In this document: piece by piece, positions 9,046-64,000 of the stretch
Numbering within the stretch: the first letter of the stretch is position 1
Layout: every line of letters starts with the position of its first letter
NCBI RefSeq assembly: GCF_005233835.1
Contig: NZ_SZQA01000008.1
Span: forward strand, 124,001-188,000
Length of the DNA stretch: 64,000 nucleotides
Direction: 5' to 3'
Source: Herbidospora galbida
GTDB lineage: Bacteria > Actinomycetota > Actinomycetes > Streptosporangiales > Streptosporangiaceae
The notes under the pieces: generated by a model
Told to the model about the DNA's origin: nothing
Seen by the model: the letters and a program-made list of their open reading frames with translations, nothing else
Database searches by the model: none
Translations under genes and position numbers: made by a program

Positions 9046-9807
9046 TCAGGCACACTGGGTCAGCATGATGTCCTTGTCGGCCGTGGTGACCGGCAGGTCA
9101 TACTTGAGCGCCACCTGGGCGAACCTGACCACGTAGGAGCAGCGGATCTTCCGCACCGGCGGTAACCACGACGCCGGGCCCGAGTCGCTCTTCGACGAGT
9201 TGGTCGAGCCGTCGACCGGCAGCAGGTTGAGCGGGTCGTTGGCCAGCCGCTTGCGCTCGGCCTCGCTCCACCGCGAGGAGCCCATCTGCCAGCTGTACGA
9301 CAGCGGGATCACATGGTCGATCTGGACCTCCGACGCGTCTTCCTTCCGGAAGTCGATGGTCTTGCCCGTGTAGGGGTCGTCGAGCGTCATCGCCACGACG
9401 ACGCAGTCGGAGCCGCTGCGGAACTCGACGTCCTCGCCGTCGCGCTGGAGCAGGTCGTTGCGGGTGTCGCAGCCGTTGCGCGCCAGCGGGATGCCGTCGG
9501 CGTTGTCGGCCCACGCGTAGCCGAACTCGTCGCGGTCGTACCCGGTCTTCGGGCCCCGGCCCTTGGTATCGACCTTCTCGATCAGCTCACGGGCCTCCTT
9601 GAGATCGGCCTCGGACGTGATCGCCTTGAGGCCCGCCTTGGTGCCCTCGGGGTTGTCCAGGGGGTTGGTCCCGGACGACGATCCCCCGCCTCCCCCGGAG
9701 TCGCCCGGCGGAGCCGCCGCCTCGATCGCACCGCAGCCCGACACGAGTAATCCCGCCAGCACGAACCCGGCGCCCACTCTGCGCAGCACCGCCCACCCCC
9801 AGGTCAT
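9046..9807 (-). CDS. Secreted lipoprotein with HNH endonuclease domain (DUF1524-like)
   Basis: 253 residues from ATG 9807 (an upstream ATG at 9840 exists, but GGCAGG lies 7 bases before 9807). A signal sequence ends in the lipobox LLVSGCG, followed by a Gly/Ser/Pro-rich linker. The C-terminal half has the motif EVQIDHVIPLSYSW, then NDPLNLLPVDGSTNSSKSD and a late Cys-containing segment. This is the His-(x)-Asn arrangement of DUF1524/HNH nucleases widespread as exported proteins in Streptomyces. It probably cleaves DNA outside the membrane, for nutrition or competition. No immunity gene is evident nearby. Activity is inferred from the motif. Confidence 0.85.
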   Translation of the reverse strand: MTWGWAVLRRVGAGFVLAGLLVSGCGAIEAAAPPGDSGGGGGSSSGTNPLDNPEGTKAGLKAITSEADLKEARELIEKVDTKGRGPKTGYDRDEFGYAWADNADGIPLARNGCDTRNDLLQRDGEDVEFRSGSDCVVVAMTLDDPYTGKTIDFRKEDASEVQIDHVIPLSYSWQMGSSRWSEAERKRLANDPLNLLPVDGSTNSSKSDSGPASWLPPVRKIRCSYVVRFAQVALKYDLPVTTADKDIMLTQCA

Positions 9808-9858
9808 GAAATTGCCTGCCCAGGTATAGCAAATGCCCAAATTTCAGGCTTTAAGAGG

Positions 9859-10629
9859 TCAGGTGATCAGGATTCCACCGTCCACCGGCAGCACCGCCCC
9901 CGTCACGTACGACCCCGCGTCCGAGGCCAGGAAGACGGCCGCGCAGACCAGTTCCTCCGCCTCCCCCACCCGCCCGGCGGGCACGCGGAGGGCCAGCGTC
10001 TTCTCCAGGTAGCCCTCGGGATACTGCGAGGTCATCTCCGAGGCGAAGAACCCCGGCTCCAGGCAGTTGACCCGGATCCCCCGGCGGCCCGTCCACTGCT
10101 GCGCCAGGTCGCGGGTCAGCCCGGTGATCGCCGCCTTGGACGCCGAGTAGGCCGCCTGCGGCAGCCCTCCGGTCGTCTCGCCCAGGATGCTCCCGATGTT
10201 CACGATCGAGGAGCCGGGCCGCATCACCCGGGCGCAGGCCTGCGCCATGTGGAAGGCCCCGTTGAGGTTGACGTCGACGACCGCCCGGAACTCCTCGGCC
10301 GTCTCCTTGAGAGCGGGCACGGCGGTCCCGACCCCGGCGTTGTTGATCAGGATGTCGACCCCGCCCAGCTCGTCGACCGCCGCGGCGACCAGGGCCGCGC
10401 AGTCGTCGGGCGAGGTCACGTCGGTGGCCACCGCAACGCAACGGCGGCCGGTCTCCAGGACCAGCCGCCGTGTCTCCTCCAGCCGTTCGGCCCGCCGCGC
10501 GCCGATGGCGACGTCGGCTCCGGCCTCGGCCAGGCCGCGGGCGAAGGCAACGCCCAGGCCCGACGAGGCCCCCGTGACGACCGCGACTTTCCCGTCCAGA
10601 CGAAAACGTTCGAGAATCACGGCCGCCAC
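9859..10629 (-). CDS. Short-chain dehydrogenase/reductase
   Basis: 256 residues, classical SDR. The cofactor motif TGASSGLG is at about 20-27, NNAG at about 100, the catalytic Ser in NIGSILG, and Tyr-Lys in YSASK. The C-terminus VTGAVLPVDGGILIT is like that of 3-oxoacyl-ACP reductase-type family members. The arginine pair GARRAERLEE after beta-2 suggests NADP(H) rather than NAD(H). It stands 16 bases downstream of the large repeat protein gene on the same strand, so it may be co-transcribed. Substrate unknown. Confidence 0.85.
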   Translation of the reverse strand: MAAVILERFRLDGKVAVVTGASSGLGVAFARGLAEAGADVAIGARRAERLEETRRLVLETGRRCVAVATDVTSPDDCAALVAAAVDELGGVDILINNAGVGTAVPALKETAEEFRAVVDVNLNGAFHMAQACARVMRPGSSIVNIGSILGETTGGLPQAAYSASKAAITGLTRDLAQQWTGRRGIRVNCLEPGFFASEMTSQYPEGYLEKTLALRVPAGRVGEAEELVCAAVFLASDAGSYVTGAVLPVDGGILIT

Positions 10630-59794: not shown

Positions 59795-61626
59795 TCGCCT
59801 ACGCGGAGGCGACCTCGTGCCCCCAGGGCCGCCCGCTGACCTTCCGGCTGGGCGGCGACAGCGGCGTCCACATCCACGACGCCACCACGGGCGCCCACGT
59901 GCTGACGACCCGCGCCACCGGCCCGCGCTGGACGCTCGCGATCCCGGAGCACTGGCCGAGCTCCCTCTACCGCGCCCACTTCACCGACGCCCCCTCGTCG
60001 GAGGTGCCGAGGGCGACGGGCGAGCTGCCCGGCACCGGCGTCTCCGGCGACGACGAGGTCTACTTCGTCGTGACGGCGGCCGGCCCGAAGAAGGACGTCC
60101 TTGTGTCCATCCCGTTCGGCACCTGGCAGGCCTACAACCGCGCCGGGGTCCCCGGCGAGGGCCTCTACTGGACGGAGGACCCGTCGCGGGCCGTCGAAGT
60201 GACCTTCGACCGGCCGGGCGGCGGCCCGCCTCCCGAACGCTGGGAGGACGGCTTCCTGCGCTGGCTCCGCCCGGCGGGCTTCGACGCCGACTTCTGCGAC
60301 GGCCTCGACCTGTCGCCCTCGTTGCTGGACGGCTACCGCCTCTTGGTCGTCAACGGCCACGACGAGTACTGGACCCGCGAGATGCGCGACGCCTGCGAGG
60401 AGTTCGTGCGGCGCGGCGGCAACATGGCGATCTTCGCCGGCAACACCGCCTGGTGGCAGGCCCGCCTGGAGGGCCGCACCCTGGTCTGCCACCGCGACCC
60501 CTTCACCGACCCGGTCGACGACCCGGCGCTGGTCACCGCCGAGTGGTCGACCGTCGGCCGCCCCGAGAACACGCTGACGGGCGTGTCGTTCCGAGCGGGC
60601 GCGGGCACCTGGGGCCCGTCGATGCCGCTGATGAACGAGGAGTCGTACGTCACCCGCTTCGCCGGCCACTGGGTCTTCGAGGGCACCGGCCTGACCGAGG
60701 GCGACAAGTTCGCCCAGGGAGCCCTGGGCTACGAGACCGACGCGGCCGAGTTCGTCGAGGTGGGCGGCGTCCCGAGGGTGACCTCGCGCGACGGCACCCC
60801 GCCGTCGTTCACCGTGCTCGCCACCGCCGACCTGCGCCACTGGCGCAGCGGCGGCCAGGGCGGCTGGGCGACCATGGGCGTCTTCACCTCGGGCCGCGGC
60901 ACCGTCTTCAACGCCGCCACGGTCAACTGGGGCAACACCCTCCACGACCCGGTCGTCGACCGCATCACCCGCAACGTGCTGACCCGCCTCAGCTCGGCCT
61001 ACGACGGCTGGGACGCGATCGGCGAGCCGTCCGACATCCGCGCGCTGGCCGCCGACGCCCGCGTCCTCTACGGCGTGACCTCCGACGGCGCGCTGATGAG
61101 CCGCGAACTGTGCGCCCAGAACCTTCCCTGGCGCCCCATCGGCTGGGCCGGCGACGTGACCTGCCTCGACACTCCGCGCGAGGCGGCCGGCACCCGCGGC
61201 GTCCTGCTGTACGGCGTGACCGCCGACGGCGTCCTGCGCTCCCGCGCGGCCGTGGAGGTCCCGGCCCTCTGGCAGGACGAGGCCCGCTGCCCGGAGGGGA
61301 CCGTGGCCCTGGCGATCGCCGACTGCACGTTCTGGGTCGCGACCGCGGCGGGCCGCCTGTGGGCGATGCCCTTCACCGGCGACGAATGGCTGGACCGAGG
61401 AGAGTGCGACGCGATCGCGATGAGCGGCATGAACGGCCGCCTCTACGCCCTGACGAGCACGGGAGAACTGGTCACCCGCCGCCCGGACACGACGGATGAC
61501 TGGCACCCGGCCGGCGACCTCCCGAAGGGCACGACGACGTTCACCGCGCACGCGGGCCGCCTGGTCGCCACCACCCCAGGTGAGCCGCTGCGGTGGCGAG
61601 AAGCCCGACGGGCGCGGAATCCCTGA
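59791..61626 (+). CDS. N,N-dimethylformamidase large-subunit-like protein with C-terminal beta-propeller repeats
   Basis: 611 residues from GTG 59791 (GTGA overlap). Residues 1-410 resemble the large subunit of N,N-dimethylformamidase and related uncharacterised proteins: VSIPFGTWQAYNRAG, YRLLVVNGHDEYWTREMRDACEEF split around residues 180-200, GGNMAIFAGNTAWWQ and NAATVNWGNTL. Residues 410-611 hold at least three repeats of the type LYGVTSDGALMSR (also LYGVTADGVLRSR and LYALTSTGELVTR), as in small beta-propellers. No signal peptide. A role in amide hydrolysis or tailoring of the peptide, or in self-resistance, is possible; neither is shown. Confidence 0.75.
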   Translation: MIAYAEATSCPQGRPLTFRLGGDSGVHIHDATTGAHVLTTRATGPRWTLAIPEHWPSSLYRAHFTDAPSSEVPRATGELPGTGVSGDDEVYFVVTAAGPKKDVLVSIPFGTWQAYNRAGVPGEGLYWTEDPSRAVEVTFDRPGGGPPPERWEDGFLRWLRPAGFDADFCDGLDLSPSLLDGYRLLVVNGHDEYWTREMRDACEEFVRRGGNMAIFAGNTAWWQARLEGRTLVCHRDPFTDPVDDPALVTAEWSTVGRPENTLTGVSFRAGAGTWGPSMPLMNEESYVTRFAGHWVFEGTGLTEGDKFAQGALGYETDAAEFVEVGGVPRVTSRDGTPPSFTVLATADLRHWRSGGQGGWATMGVFTSGRGTVFNAATVNWGNTLHDPVVDRITRNVLTRLSSAYDGWDAIGEPSDIRALAADARVLYGVTSDGALMSRELCAQNLPWRPIGWAGDVTCLDTPREAAGTRGVLLYGVTADGVLRSRAAVEVPALWQDEARCPEGTVALAIADCTFWVATAAGRLWAMPFTGDEWLDRGECDAIAMSGMNGRLYALTSTGELVTRRPDTTDDWHPAGDLPKGTTTFTAHAGRLVATTPGEPLRWREARRARNP

Positions 61627-61877: not shown

Positions 61878-62312
61878 ATGGTGGAGATCTTCAATCAGCG
61901 TATCGACGGCGGAGCCCTGGAACAGGACCCCGACTACCACTTCACCGTCACCTACAAAGCGTCGTTCGACCCACAGGAATTGGGCGACACCTTCCACGAA
62001 TTCGTCAGGCTCTGCGAGGAGGACGACGTCTCTGGTGACGACTTCATCACGGCACAGGGTCCCGCAGGGAACGTGTTCTCGCCCGGCGTTCTTCCGCAAC
62101 AGAACGACAACCGCCCTGGACACCAGGGCATGAAGGTCGTCGACCGACGCCTCGGCTTCGTCCTCTCAAGGGAGGTCGCGGACACGGAAACCGGCCACGA
62201 GGAGATCTACGCCGACATCTGGCTGCGTTCGTCCGGGAATTTGCAGAGTACCGGATGGCCGGGGTCGGACAGCGGAAAAGCGACGACCAACGTCGGCGAC
62301 TTCAATCCCTAG
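61878..62312 (+). CDS. Unknown 144-residue protein at start of protease island
   Basis: 144 residues from ATG 61878 (GAGGAG 9 bases upstream; a longer frame from 61806 has no ribosome site). Acidic and soluble: VEIFNQRIDGGALEQDPDYHF, several Phe/Tyr-rich beta-like stretches (FTVTYKASFDPQEL), one Cys in VRLCEEDD, and a Gly/Ser/Asn-rich tail ending NVGDFNP. No signal peptide and no family recognised. Being the first gene before an S8 protease and PatG-like gene, it could be a substrate or partner of the protease; there is no direct evidence. Confidence 0.7.
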   Translation: MVEIFNQRIDGGALEQDPDYHFTVTYKASFDPQELGDTFHEFVRLCEEDDVSGDDFITAQGPAGNVFSPGVLPQQNDNRPGHQGMKVVDRRLGFVLSREVADTETGHEEIYADIWLRSSGNLQSTGWPGSDSGKATTNVGDFNP

Positions 62313-62389
62313 CACAAGGGATGGAAAGGGCCGAATCCGGCCTCGGCCCTTTCCAGGGAAATCGCACGCTCTCGTCCACAGGCGACCGC

Positions 62390-63322
62390 ATGACCACAAT
62401 CGCTCAGACTCACGGTGTGAATCCACTTGAGCTCATCGGCCTTCCCCGCCTGATGGCCAGGACCGGCGGAGAAGGCGCCACGAGAATCGGGCTCATCGAC
62501 GGACCGGTTCTGGCCACTCACCCGGGGCTGGCCGGCGCGAACCTCGAATTGCCCGCTCGGCTGTCGACGGCGCGCGATATAGCGTCCCATCACGCGACAG
62601 CCGTCGCCGGCGTCCTTGTCGGTCGACGCGACTCCGGCGCCCCGGGCGTCTGTCCGGGCGCCACCTTGGTGAGCCATCCGATTTTCGCTCCCGCCCCGTC
62701 ACATTCCGGTGGCACGACCACCGCCCGGCAGGACGTCCTCGCGGCCGCGATCGTGGAGATGGCCGACGCCGGGACGCGGATCCTCAATCTGAGCCTGACG
62801 CTGTCTCCGCGTAGCCACGACGCCCATCGCATCCTGCAGAGGGCTCTCGATCACGCGGCCGCGCGAGGCCTGATCGTCGTGGCCGCCGCGGGTGACCACG
62901 GGACGATCGGCGGCTCGGTCATCACCCGCCATCAGTCGGTCATCCCGGTCGTCGCCTACGGCCTTCACGGGCACCCTGCGGCGAACGCGAATACCGGGCC
63001 GACGATCGGCCGCCGCGGAGTGGGCGCGACCGGCGCCGGAATGGTCAGCCTCGGAGCGGACGGGGGACTACGTCCTTTCGGCGGATCGAGCGCCGCCGCG
63101 GCCCTGGTCACCGGTGTCATCGCCCTGTTGTGGTCGGAATTTCCCGACGCGACGCACGCGGACCTGGTCCACGCGGTCACCGGGTCCACGTCCCGCCGTT
63201 CCTCTGTGGTGCCGCCGCTGGTCAACGCTTGGACGGCTTACCAGACGTTGCGCACGAGACGTGATCGACAAGGAGGCGCACATCATGGCCGATCAGGACA
63301 GGCCCCGCATGGCGGGCGATGA
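62390..63322 (+). CDS. Subtilisin-like (S8) protease of PatA/PatG type
   Basis: 310 residues from ATG 62390. Catalytic residues by pattern: Asp37 in IGLIDGPV, His68 in HHATAVAGVLVG, Ser234 in FGGSSAAAALVTGVIALL. The wording HATAVAG and GSSAAAA (in place of HGTHVAG and GTSMAAP) is that of proteases of the cyanobactin PatA/PatG type rather than secreted subtilisins, and there is no signal peptide, so it should act in the cytoplasm. The oxyanion Asn appears to be Asp169 (AAAGDHG). The C-terminus after residue 290 is encoded partly within the overlap with the next gene (38 bases). Confidence 0.8.
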   Translation: MTTIAQTHGVNPLELIGLPRLMARTGGEGATRIGLIDGPVLATHPGLAGANLELPARLSTARDIASHHATAVAGVLVGRRDSGAPGVCPGATLVSHPIFAPAPSHSGGTTTARQDVLAAAIVEMADAGTRILNLSLTLSPRSHDAHRILQRALDHAAARGLIVVAAAGDHGTIGGSVITRHQSVIPVVAYGLHGHPAANANTGPTIGRRGVGATGAGMVSLGADGGLRPFGGSSAAAALVTGVIALLWSEFPDATHADLVHAVTGSTSRRSSVVPPLVNAWTAYQTLRTRRDRQGGAHHGRSGQAPHGGR

Positions 63323-63527
63323 CGAGAAGCCGGCCGAGCCGACGTCGGCCCGCGTGCGGCTTCCCGGATTCGTCAACGACGAGGACATCGGGCTGGGCGA
63401 CGTCGTGAAACGCGTTTCCCGGGCCACCGGCATACGACCGTGTCGCGGCTGCGGACAGCGGGCCGAAACGCTCAACCGCTGGCTTGTGTTCTCCGGCAGG
63501 AGCGGATCGCGACGACGAGAGGTCTGA
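63285..63527 (+). CDS. 80-residue CxxC protein, unknown
   Basis: 80 residues from ATG 63285, with an excellent AGGAGG 8 bases upstream that lies inside the end of the protease gene. The first 25 residues are charged and variable-looking; then VRLPGFVNDEDIGLGDVVKR leads to GIRPCRGCGQRAETLNRW with Cys53 and Cys56. I recall similar small GLGDVVKR...GIRPCxGC proteins next to PatG-like genes in other bacteria, but no function. It could be a metal-binding accessory protein or the substrate of the protease pair. Confidence 0.8.
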   Translation: MADQDRPRMAGDDEKPAEPTSARVRLPGFVNDEDIGLGDVVKRVSRATGIRPCRGCGQRAETLNRWLVFSGRSGSRRREV

Positions 63528-63537
63528 GCACCGATCG

Positions 63538-64000
63538 ATGGGAAACGGCCCTATGAACGAGAACGAGCAACTGTCCGTGCAGCCCGCCTCAACGGAATCG
63601 CCGTCTCACGACACGATGCCCGGTCCGGTGCCGGCGGAAAAGGAACCGCACACCTGCACGACCTGCGGTCACGGTCCGGAGAAACTCGCGGCCACCGGTC
63701 AGGGCGGTGACCCCGTCTCACCCTACGTATACGCACTCGGCAGAATCGAACCGCGTATGCCGAGCCTCGGCGTGGAAAAGGAATTCGCGCAGGCGACCGG
63801 GCGCGCCGAGACCACCGACATGACCGACCGCCAAGCGCTGCACGCAGTGCTTTCCGCACCACAGAATCGCTATCTGATCCGCCAGCTCTGCTATGTGCTC
63901 ACTGTTCAGGGGCTCGACACGTACCTGCTGCGCCCCCGCGACTCCGGAGACCTTTCCCAGCTCGTGGAAGCCCTGGCTGAGGCACCGCGGTCGACGGACC
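63538..64000 (+). CDS. PatG C-terminal-like protein (partial at window end)
   Basis: Open from ATG 63538 (ATG 63553 also possible) to the last base; 154 residues visible. After a 35-residue polar lead there is a CTTC motif (Cys40, Cys43), then YVYALGRIEPRMPSLGVEKEF in parts, AQATGRAETTDMTDRQALHAVL, NRYLIRQLCYVLTVQGLDTYLL and RPRDSGDLSQLVEAL. This matches my recollection of the domain following the protease in the cyanobactin maturation protein PatG, here encoded apart from the S8 protease. Its role even in cyanobactin pathways is poorly understood. The 3' part lies outside the window. Confidence 0.8.
   Translation, partial: MGNGPMNENEQLSVQPASTESPSHDTMPGPVPAEKEPHTCTTCGHGPEKLAATGQGGDPVSPYVYALGRIEPRMPSLGVEKEFAQATGRAETTDMTDRQALHAVLSAPQNRYLIRQLCYVLTVQGLDTYLLRPRDSGDLSQLVEALAEAPRSTD

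Follow-up and report, generated by a model that had tools for sequence, protein, structure and literature searches.

Does the protease set that lies at the end of a 64,000-nucleotide stretch of the Herbidospora galbida genome (hereafter the window; contig C95:124001-188000 of genome G000, forward strand) belong to a cyanobactin pathway of the PatA/PatG kind, or does it serve another sort of ribosomal peptide? A first-pass annotation had placed a 144-residue protein, an S8 protease, a small CxxC protein and a PatG-C-like protein at 61878-64000, all of which are borne out by the open reading frames (ORFs) and by Pfam and NCBIfam searches, and it had raised the idea of a different protease-driven peptide system, which is now well supported by the conserved gene set and by a family of leader-bearing small ORFs. 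We consider it likely that the locus is a maturation island, in which a PatA-like protease removes a common leader from ribosomal, probably disulfide-bonded peptides. Rather than a pathway to cyclic peptides, the set is probably a peptide-maturation system of a new kind.

The window end at 64000 splits the gene set (Table 1), truncating the PatG-like gene and leaving a fifth gene wholly outside, and 22.6 kb of contig C95 lie past it. The downstream DNA, read as loci L003 and L004 (position p of L003 is window position 59999+p), contains no ordinary cyanobactin cluster: the PatG-like gene ends at 64485 and is followed by a protein with 40 Cys. The earlier statement that no precursor is present accordingly holds inside the window and fails beyond it, where a candidate substrate starts at 64508. 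The description of the genes as one overlapping set is likewise right for the S8 and CxxC genes, which share 38 bp (63285-63322), and wrong for the CxxC and PatG-like genes, which, with the start used here, lie 25 bp apart. The start of the S8 gene is itself uncertain, as an alternative in-frame ATG is found at 62255. In Herbidospora mongoliensis (G006, loci L012 and L016), the nearest relative, the same five genes stand between other flanks, and these define the borders of the set.

Table 1. Genes of the set at and beyond the window end, in window coordinates.
Feature	Position	Strand	Remarks
orf1, 144 aa	61878..62312	+	all-beta protein; accessory, some actinobacterial loci only
S8 (subtilisin-family) protease, PatA-like	62390..63322	+	PF00082 E 8e-18; presumed leader peptidase
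CxxC protein, 80 aa	63285..63527	+	PCRGC motif; conserved partner
Free-standing PatG_D+PatG_C protein, 310 aa	63553..64485 (window part 63553..64000)	+	PF18047 4e-29, PF18065 6e-31
Cys-rich protein, 267 aa, 40 Cys	64508..65311 (past window end)	+	leader-bearing candidate precursor

The search for the gene set in other genomes that the first-pass annotation had proposed was carried out by scanning genome contigs with three PatG-like proteins. Eighteen loci were confirmed from 65 pattern matches and, with L003 and L013, gave 20 loci (L003, L013, L016-L033), in all of which the PatG-like protein is present by construction of the scan; L003/L016, L022/L024/L025, L013/L027 and L030/L031 are close relatives. 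Homologues of both the S8 and the CxxC protein, located by phmmer, accompany it in 20 of 20 loci (the CxxC gene is frameshifted in two, and contig ends cut the S8 gene of L032 and the PatG-like gene of L033). The loci span Actinomycetota, Pseudomonadota, Acidobacteriota, Chloroflexota and one Abditibacteriales metagenome-assembled genome. A neighbourhood survey of 22 loci in 16 groups found the S8, CxxC, PatG-like and orf1 families, their antisense shadows and large Cys-rich proteins to recur; no other family appeared in more than four groups, a short-chain dehydrogenase/reductase-type enzyme being seen in three and ATP-binding cassette (ABC) ATPases in two.

The conserved short ORFs that were to be looked for near each occurrence are also there: in 17 of the 20 loci, ORFs adjoining the set have a common start, M..PGFTAEASLYRT..YR, and divergent, mostly Cys-rich C-termini. 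The leader is some 35-40 residues long, and this N-terminal element is followed roughly 15-20 residues on by an end motif, [VI]xP[Q/A], often near the first Cys. Fifty-one precursor rows sharing the leader (rows under 16 bits were dropped) fall into 25 core clusters by single linkage (blastp E 1e-4, without composition correction), which is the combination of conserved leader and variable core expected for maturation of the type seen in ribosomally synthesised and post-translationally modified peptides (RiPPs). The number of Cys is even in 20 of the 24 Cys-containing clusters (one-sided binomial p 8e-4, with ties counted as odd), and this suggests disulfides. A loose end-of-leader pattern (a hydrophobic residue, one optional position, P/L and finally Q/A/S) occurs in 45 of the 51 rows, at offset 31-37 in 40 of the 51, against a mean of 11.5 and a maximum of 18 in 200 shuffles; five of seven plasmid precursors (E < 1e-4) that lay outside the models show xPQ by eye. 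Several of the cores read as bacteriocin-like, being of small size, hydrophobic and rich in Gly and Cys, and seven actinobacterial loci encode large proteins of 264-300 residues with 40-50 Cys; the candidate precursor of the window genome has a CX3CX3C...CX3CX3C stretch as the first segment of its core. Seven precursors tested gave no Pfam or NCBIfam match above cut-off, two NCBIfam matches (E 0.0017 and 0.61) being far below it. The leader motif can serve as a search key for a mostly Cys-rich peptide family that runs from short members to 40-50-Cys proteins; the strings FTAEASL, TAEASLY and GFTAEAS were found in no paper of the literature searched. Four Nitrosospira/Nitrosovibrio genomes carry 4, 4, 8 and 7 leader matches spread over several contigs, and the leader ORF of the genome of L033, whose contig ends inside the PatG-like gene, apparently lies on another contig (L079).

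Leader and split PatG protein also occur together across genomes. Among 819 genomes, drawn as 396 actinobacterial ones, 274 of the Nitrosospira class and 149 of the acidobacterial phylum, the leader (E <= 1.1e-6) was found in eight (2/396, 4/274 and 2/149), and the split PatG protein in the same eight. PatG_C is present in four of the 396 actinobacterial genomes: two of the split type (G000, G057), the fused G381, and G184. In apparently the same draw the leader model matched G000 and G057 at 1.5e-13 or better, with the next best match at 1e-3; of its 126 matches at E <= 0.1, 124, several of them interrupted by stops, had E values from 0.001 to 0.1 and were treated as background. At E <= 1e-4 the 274 draw gave leader matches in G457, G489, G496, G637 and G593, the first four of which are matched by the PatG model (in G496 through a fragment of 33 residues at the edge of a contig), and in the 149 draw both models matched G464 and G825 only, the latter having S8, CxxC and PatG-like genes followed by four leader ORFs. 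Searched by tblastn, the window PatG-like protein matched 5 of 72,556 plasmid records and, as regards a phage origin, none of 50,697 phage records. Three of the four held-out plasmid loci (at least 80% coverage) have S8, CxxC and PatG-like genes with leader ORFs, on plasmids of Sinorhizobium mexicanum (where several precursors stand in a row), Mesorhizobium sp. and Streptomyces sp. NBC_01568; a Photobacterium plasmid gave a distant partial match without the gene set. A quickly built tree of 19 PatG-like sequences puts the window protein with that of H. mongoliensis, and the acidobacterial one alongside those of Sphaerisporangium and two Streptomyces (Shimodaira-Hasegawa-like approximate likelihood ratio test 95). 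The tree, which is midpoint-rooted and has a long Anaerolineae branch, is indicative only, and together with the plasmid copies it fits horizontal spread.

That a leader is removed from peptides which form disulfides is suggested by the common leader, the dedicated PatA-related S8 protease and the even numbers of Cys in the cores. In such a scheme, the leader would be recognised by the PatA-like S8 protease together with the PatG_D/PatG_C protein and the CxxC protein, and the S8 protease would cut at or near the leader-end motif, which would free a disulfide-stabilised peptide or small protein. The precursor in the window genome would be the 267-aa protein. Nitrosospira-type genomes appear to use a single protease locus for several precursors encoded at scattered sites. 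No modifying enzyme was recognised. Neither a signal peptide nor a C-terminal anchor is apparent by eye in the S8 protein, and the lack of a signal peptide means that processing may be cytoplasmic. The genes and their association, the common leader on divergent C-termini, the tendency to even Cys numbers, the PatA-like sequence and the PatG-DUF-like fold are observations; cleavage and its position, the disulfides and the division of labour, with the roles of the CxxC, PatG-like and 144-residue proteins, are inferences, and the product may be bioactive, perhaps antimicrobial.

The homology of the S8 and PatG_D/PatG_C proteins to cyanobactin proteins, and the existence of a fused S8-PatG_D-PatG_C protein in the actinobacterium G381 (L015), would accord with a split cyanobactin-type pathway, in which the S8 protein would act on a peptide as a PatG-like macrocyclase and the PatG_D/PatG_C protein would be its detached partner, but we regard this as quite improbable. 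The solved chains closest to the S8 protein are 4h6v, 3zxx, 3zxy and 4h6w, annotated either as subtilisin-like protein or as N-terminal cyanobactin protease, the first three of which we take to be PatA; the alignment with 4h6v is nearly co-linear (224 against 222 residues), and no PatG macrocyclase entry was recognised among the 48 PDB chains at E <= 1e-5. The first-pass view of two split PatG parts, macrocyclase included, is therefore not upheld, and macrocyclisation by a PatG-like domain was given up as a leading idea on the same grounds. Whether the S8 protein counts as a PatA/PatG-type protease is less clear-cut: its nearest solved chains point that way, and TIGR03895, the NCBIfam PatA/PatG model, gives this lone protease 75.6 bits, under its cut-off of 421. 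No second S8 gene was noticed across the 19 kb of L003. The precursors, moreover, show no common follower sequence in the aligned candidates, which have only a common N-terminal leader and not the recognition sequences that flank short cores in a PatE-like precursor. The earlier remark that the window lacks a heterocyclase extends to the whole of contig C95, where a whole-genome search with the YcaO model found none; its five matches in the genome lie on C73, C106 and, three of them, C39.

In a second alternative no natural product is made: Cys-rich structural or surface proteins would carry the leader as a tag for sorting or assembly, and the S8, CxxC and PatG-like proteins would process or chaperone them. 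This is somewhat less remote, though we still think it unlikely. The large 40-50-Cys proteins of the seven actinobacterial loci, the presence of the all-beta accessory orf1 in five loci and the want of any exporter recurring in at least three groups all speak for it; the cores, however, are unrelated between and often within genomes, some being of the short, bacteriocin-like kind, and the distribution is sporadic and partly on plasmids. Damaged or partial copies (frameshifted CxxC genes in L024 and L025, an incomplete set in L139) might instead point to unrelated neighbours or a decayed cyanobactin remnant. To this we attach a negligible probability, given the conservation of the set in 20 of 20 loci, the matching presence and absence over the 819 genomes (read with the candidate limits and the dependencies between models and genomes set out below) and the co-occurrence in the independent genomes G489, G496, G637 and G825 and in plasmids.

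Several observations nonetheless weigh against our preferred reading of the locus as an island for leader removal. Some concern how the models were built and scored: the leader model A3, made from 18 leaders, matches 16 of 18 genomes at E <= 0.001, 14 of which had given rows to it, and of the four genomes without rows in it, G459 (which is close to a source) and G468 were matched and G465 and G466 were missed. Among the eight positive genomes, G000, G457 and G464 were centres of the draws and G057 gave model rows, which leaves G489, G496, G637 and G825 as independent; the leader was scored on at most 18, 26 and 48 first-look candidates per genome in the three draws, and leader-only genomes may escape. 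The end-of-leader test is partly circular, as the loose pattern was derived from the same sequences and the 18 leader-model rows cover the segment. Others concern individual loci. Only a weak leader-like ORF was found in L030 and none in L031, the leader model missing both genomes; G593 has a weak leader match (5.3e-5, with an internal stop) without a PatG protein; and a plasmid of S. xanthophaeus (L139) has CxxC and PatG-like genes, with no S8 gene and no leader in 12.8 kb. Four core clusters have odd or tied Cys counts, one precursor (L029:9079-9384) has no Cys at all, and the window core, of some 230 residues with 40 Cys, is large for a RiPP. An exporter is also missing as a recurrent neighbour, none being found in at least three of the 16 groups of the neighbourhood survey. 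Last, the catalytic D/H/S motifs are present in 19 of 19 aligned S8 sequences (L032, cut by a contig end, was left out), and the oxyanion-hole position is Asn in 17 of the 19, but it is Asp in L003 (window 62883-62897) and in the Nonomuraea locus L017, and from its sequence the window copy of the protease could be weakened.

The PatG-like protein invites a more specific proposal. Its AlphaFold model (mean pLDDT, the predicted local distance difference test, 77.2, with residues 1-52 low) has as its sole PDB match at E <= 0.001 the PatG domain of unknown function (DUF), 4uvq (E 2.3e-15, TM score 0.64/0.74). The C-terminal DUF of cyanobactin biosynthesis is thus present here, but as a separate gene. 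The PatG DUF is reported to be a novel fold that does not bind linear PatE' and whose role is left open (PMC4259220). In the single model made of the PatG-like protein the N-terminal tail is unstructured. A CxC/CxxC pair is present in this tail in 17 of 20 proteins, and a motif like the leader end occurs in 15 of 21 tails (the 20 and L133; shuffle mean 1.4, maximum 6 in 2000), or 10 of 16 once close relatives are removed (9 of 13 in a first subset), with tail starts set by hand and the motif sometimes far from the Cys pair. In tails such as those of L022, L023, L029 and L133 CxC or CxxC comes after an ISPQ/VSPQ-like motif, an arrangement similar to that where leader meets core in the candidate substrates. 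These tail features hint at a possible role of the PatG-like protein in leader presentation or protease gating. One might go further and see a phylum-spanning new class of disulfide-rich peptides, whose leader is read by the free-standing PatG DUF and cut by the PatA-like protease in trans, the DUF tail acting as a pseudo-substrate or clipped switch; we hold this extended version to be tentative and, on balance, doubtful. If it were true, the DUF of cyanobactin proteases would be a substrate-delivery or gating subunit. In any case, with the DUF as a gene of its own beside a single protease and a candidate substrate family, its role becomes testable by omission.

C-terminal to the S8 catalytic domain, the aligned homologues have a conserved VVPPLLDA-like stretch (e.g. 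window 63200-63235), which recalls the leader-end motif and could be a pseudo-substrate or due to chance. In the acidobacterial locus L029 the full PatG-like gene is followed further downstream by a second, isolated PatG_C-type ORF (9567-10022), which is surrounded by leader ORFs. The fused protein of G381 (L015:9111-10988) is followed by a 48-aa ORF (L015:11325-11471; MLPPQASPIDRTPAGAAAF...GIGILGGLL) that could be a substrate of the fused type, and in G184 (L014) PatG_D and PatG_C lie within an 843-residue open frame; the split-type PatG model A1 matches neither genome.

Comparison with known systems is instructive as to what is shared and what is not. PatA is reported to make the first cut in patellamide biosynthesis, before PatG (PMC10885120). 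The present set resembles cyanobactin pathways in an S8 protease that is closest to PatA-type solved chains, in its PatG DUF fold and in the leader-bearing ribosomal precursor that we postulate, and differs from them in having separate genes for protease and DUF, an additional CxxC protein, another leader and mostly Cys-rich cores; neither a macrocyclase nor a PatE-like precursor with recognition sequences was noticed here, and contig C95 has no YcaO. The YcaO heterocyclase is optional in some cyanobactins. QhpE is an S8 leader protease for the small, Cys-bearing subunit of quinohemoprotein amine dehydrogenase, and the window protease would share with it the action on a Cys-bearing substrate; its score against the QhpE model NF049966, however, is 39.6 bits against a cut-off of 165, the substrate family here is hypervariable, and no search was made for Qhp partners. 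The best NCBIfam score of the S8 protein is to the mycosin of type VII secretion systems (TIGR03921), yet at 96.5 bits it is far under the cut-off of 278.75, the protein has no evident signal peptide or anchor, and no search was made for ESX genes. RiPP families exist in which one enzyme set serves many dispersed precursors. The conserved leader, hypervariable core and several precursors per maturation locus are features in common with these, while no modifying enzyme was recognised here and the tested precursors and CxxC proteins match no Pfam or NCBIfam family above its cut-off. A 2026 preprint reports a RiPP cluster of another type, in which an S8/S53 domain and a carbamoyl transferase are fused (PMC13174530). 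In a full-text literature search, no title or abstract opening described the present gene set; subscription papers were mostly outside its scope, and an earlier description is possible.

The CxxC protein has the consensus RLPGF...IGLGD..KR...PCxGC..RA..LNRW, and its two Cys are conserved in all 17 sequences aligned. The two CxxC proteins tested fall in no Pfam or NCBIfam family above cut-off, no significant match was found in the PDB, and the phage family phrog_32048 is matched weakly (E 1.6e-5). The CxxC genes of L024 and L025, from two Nitrosospira strains, are by our reading frameshifted; a third precursor of L024 (9347-9754) is apparently broken as well, which together suggests decay or sequencing error. 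The orf1 protein has no Pfam or NCBIfam match at E <= 1, and its AlphaFold model (mean pLDDT 77.6) is all beta, with only a general beta-sandwich resemblance to its best Foldseek match (E 1.1e-3, TM score 0.56). Homologues occur in five of the 20 loci (L003, L016, L017, L018 and L021), and in H. mongoliensis part of orf1 is present a second time, in degenerate form (L016:6521-6877), between orf1 and the S8 gene. A conserved 106-aa protein (MAT[LV]TI..V.C.ET.DG.G.DD) is found near the set in two actinobacterial loci (L019:6423-6743 and L020:9819-10136); in L019 it stands directly upstream of the S8 gene, the position held by orf1 elsewhere.

As for the surroundings of the set, a link to the non-ribosomal peptide synthetase-type genes (recognised by eye, from 53255) and the DMFA2_C protein upstream of orf1 was considered and set aside, as H. 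mongoliensis has other genes there. A role as a defence system was likewise dismissed, PADLOC having returned subtilase-type matches only (PDLC03014 and IetS). An M15-type dipeptidase gene follows the 267-aa gene on the opposite strand. Elsewhere in the genome, three consecutive YcaO matches at G000:C39:14387-17947 may mark a separate RiPP cluster.

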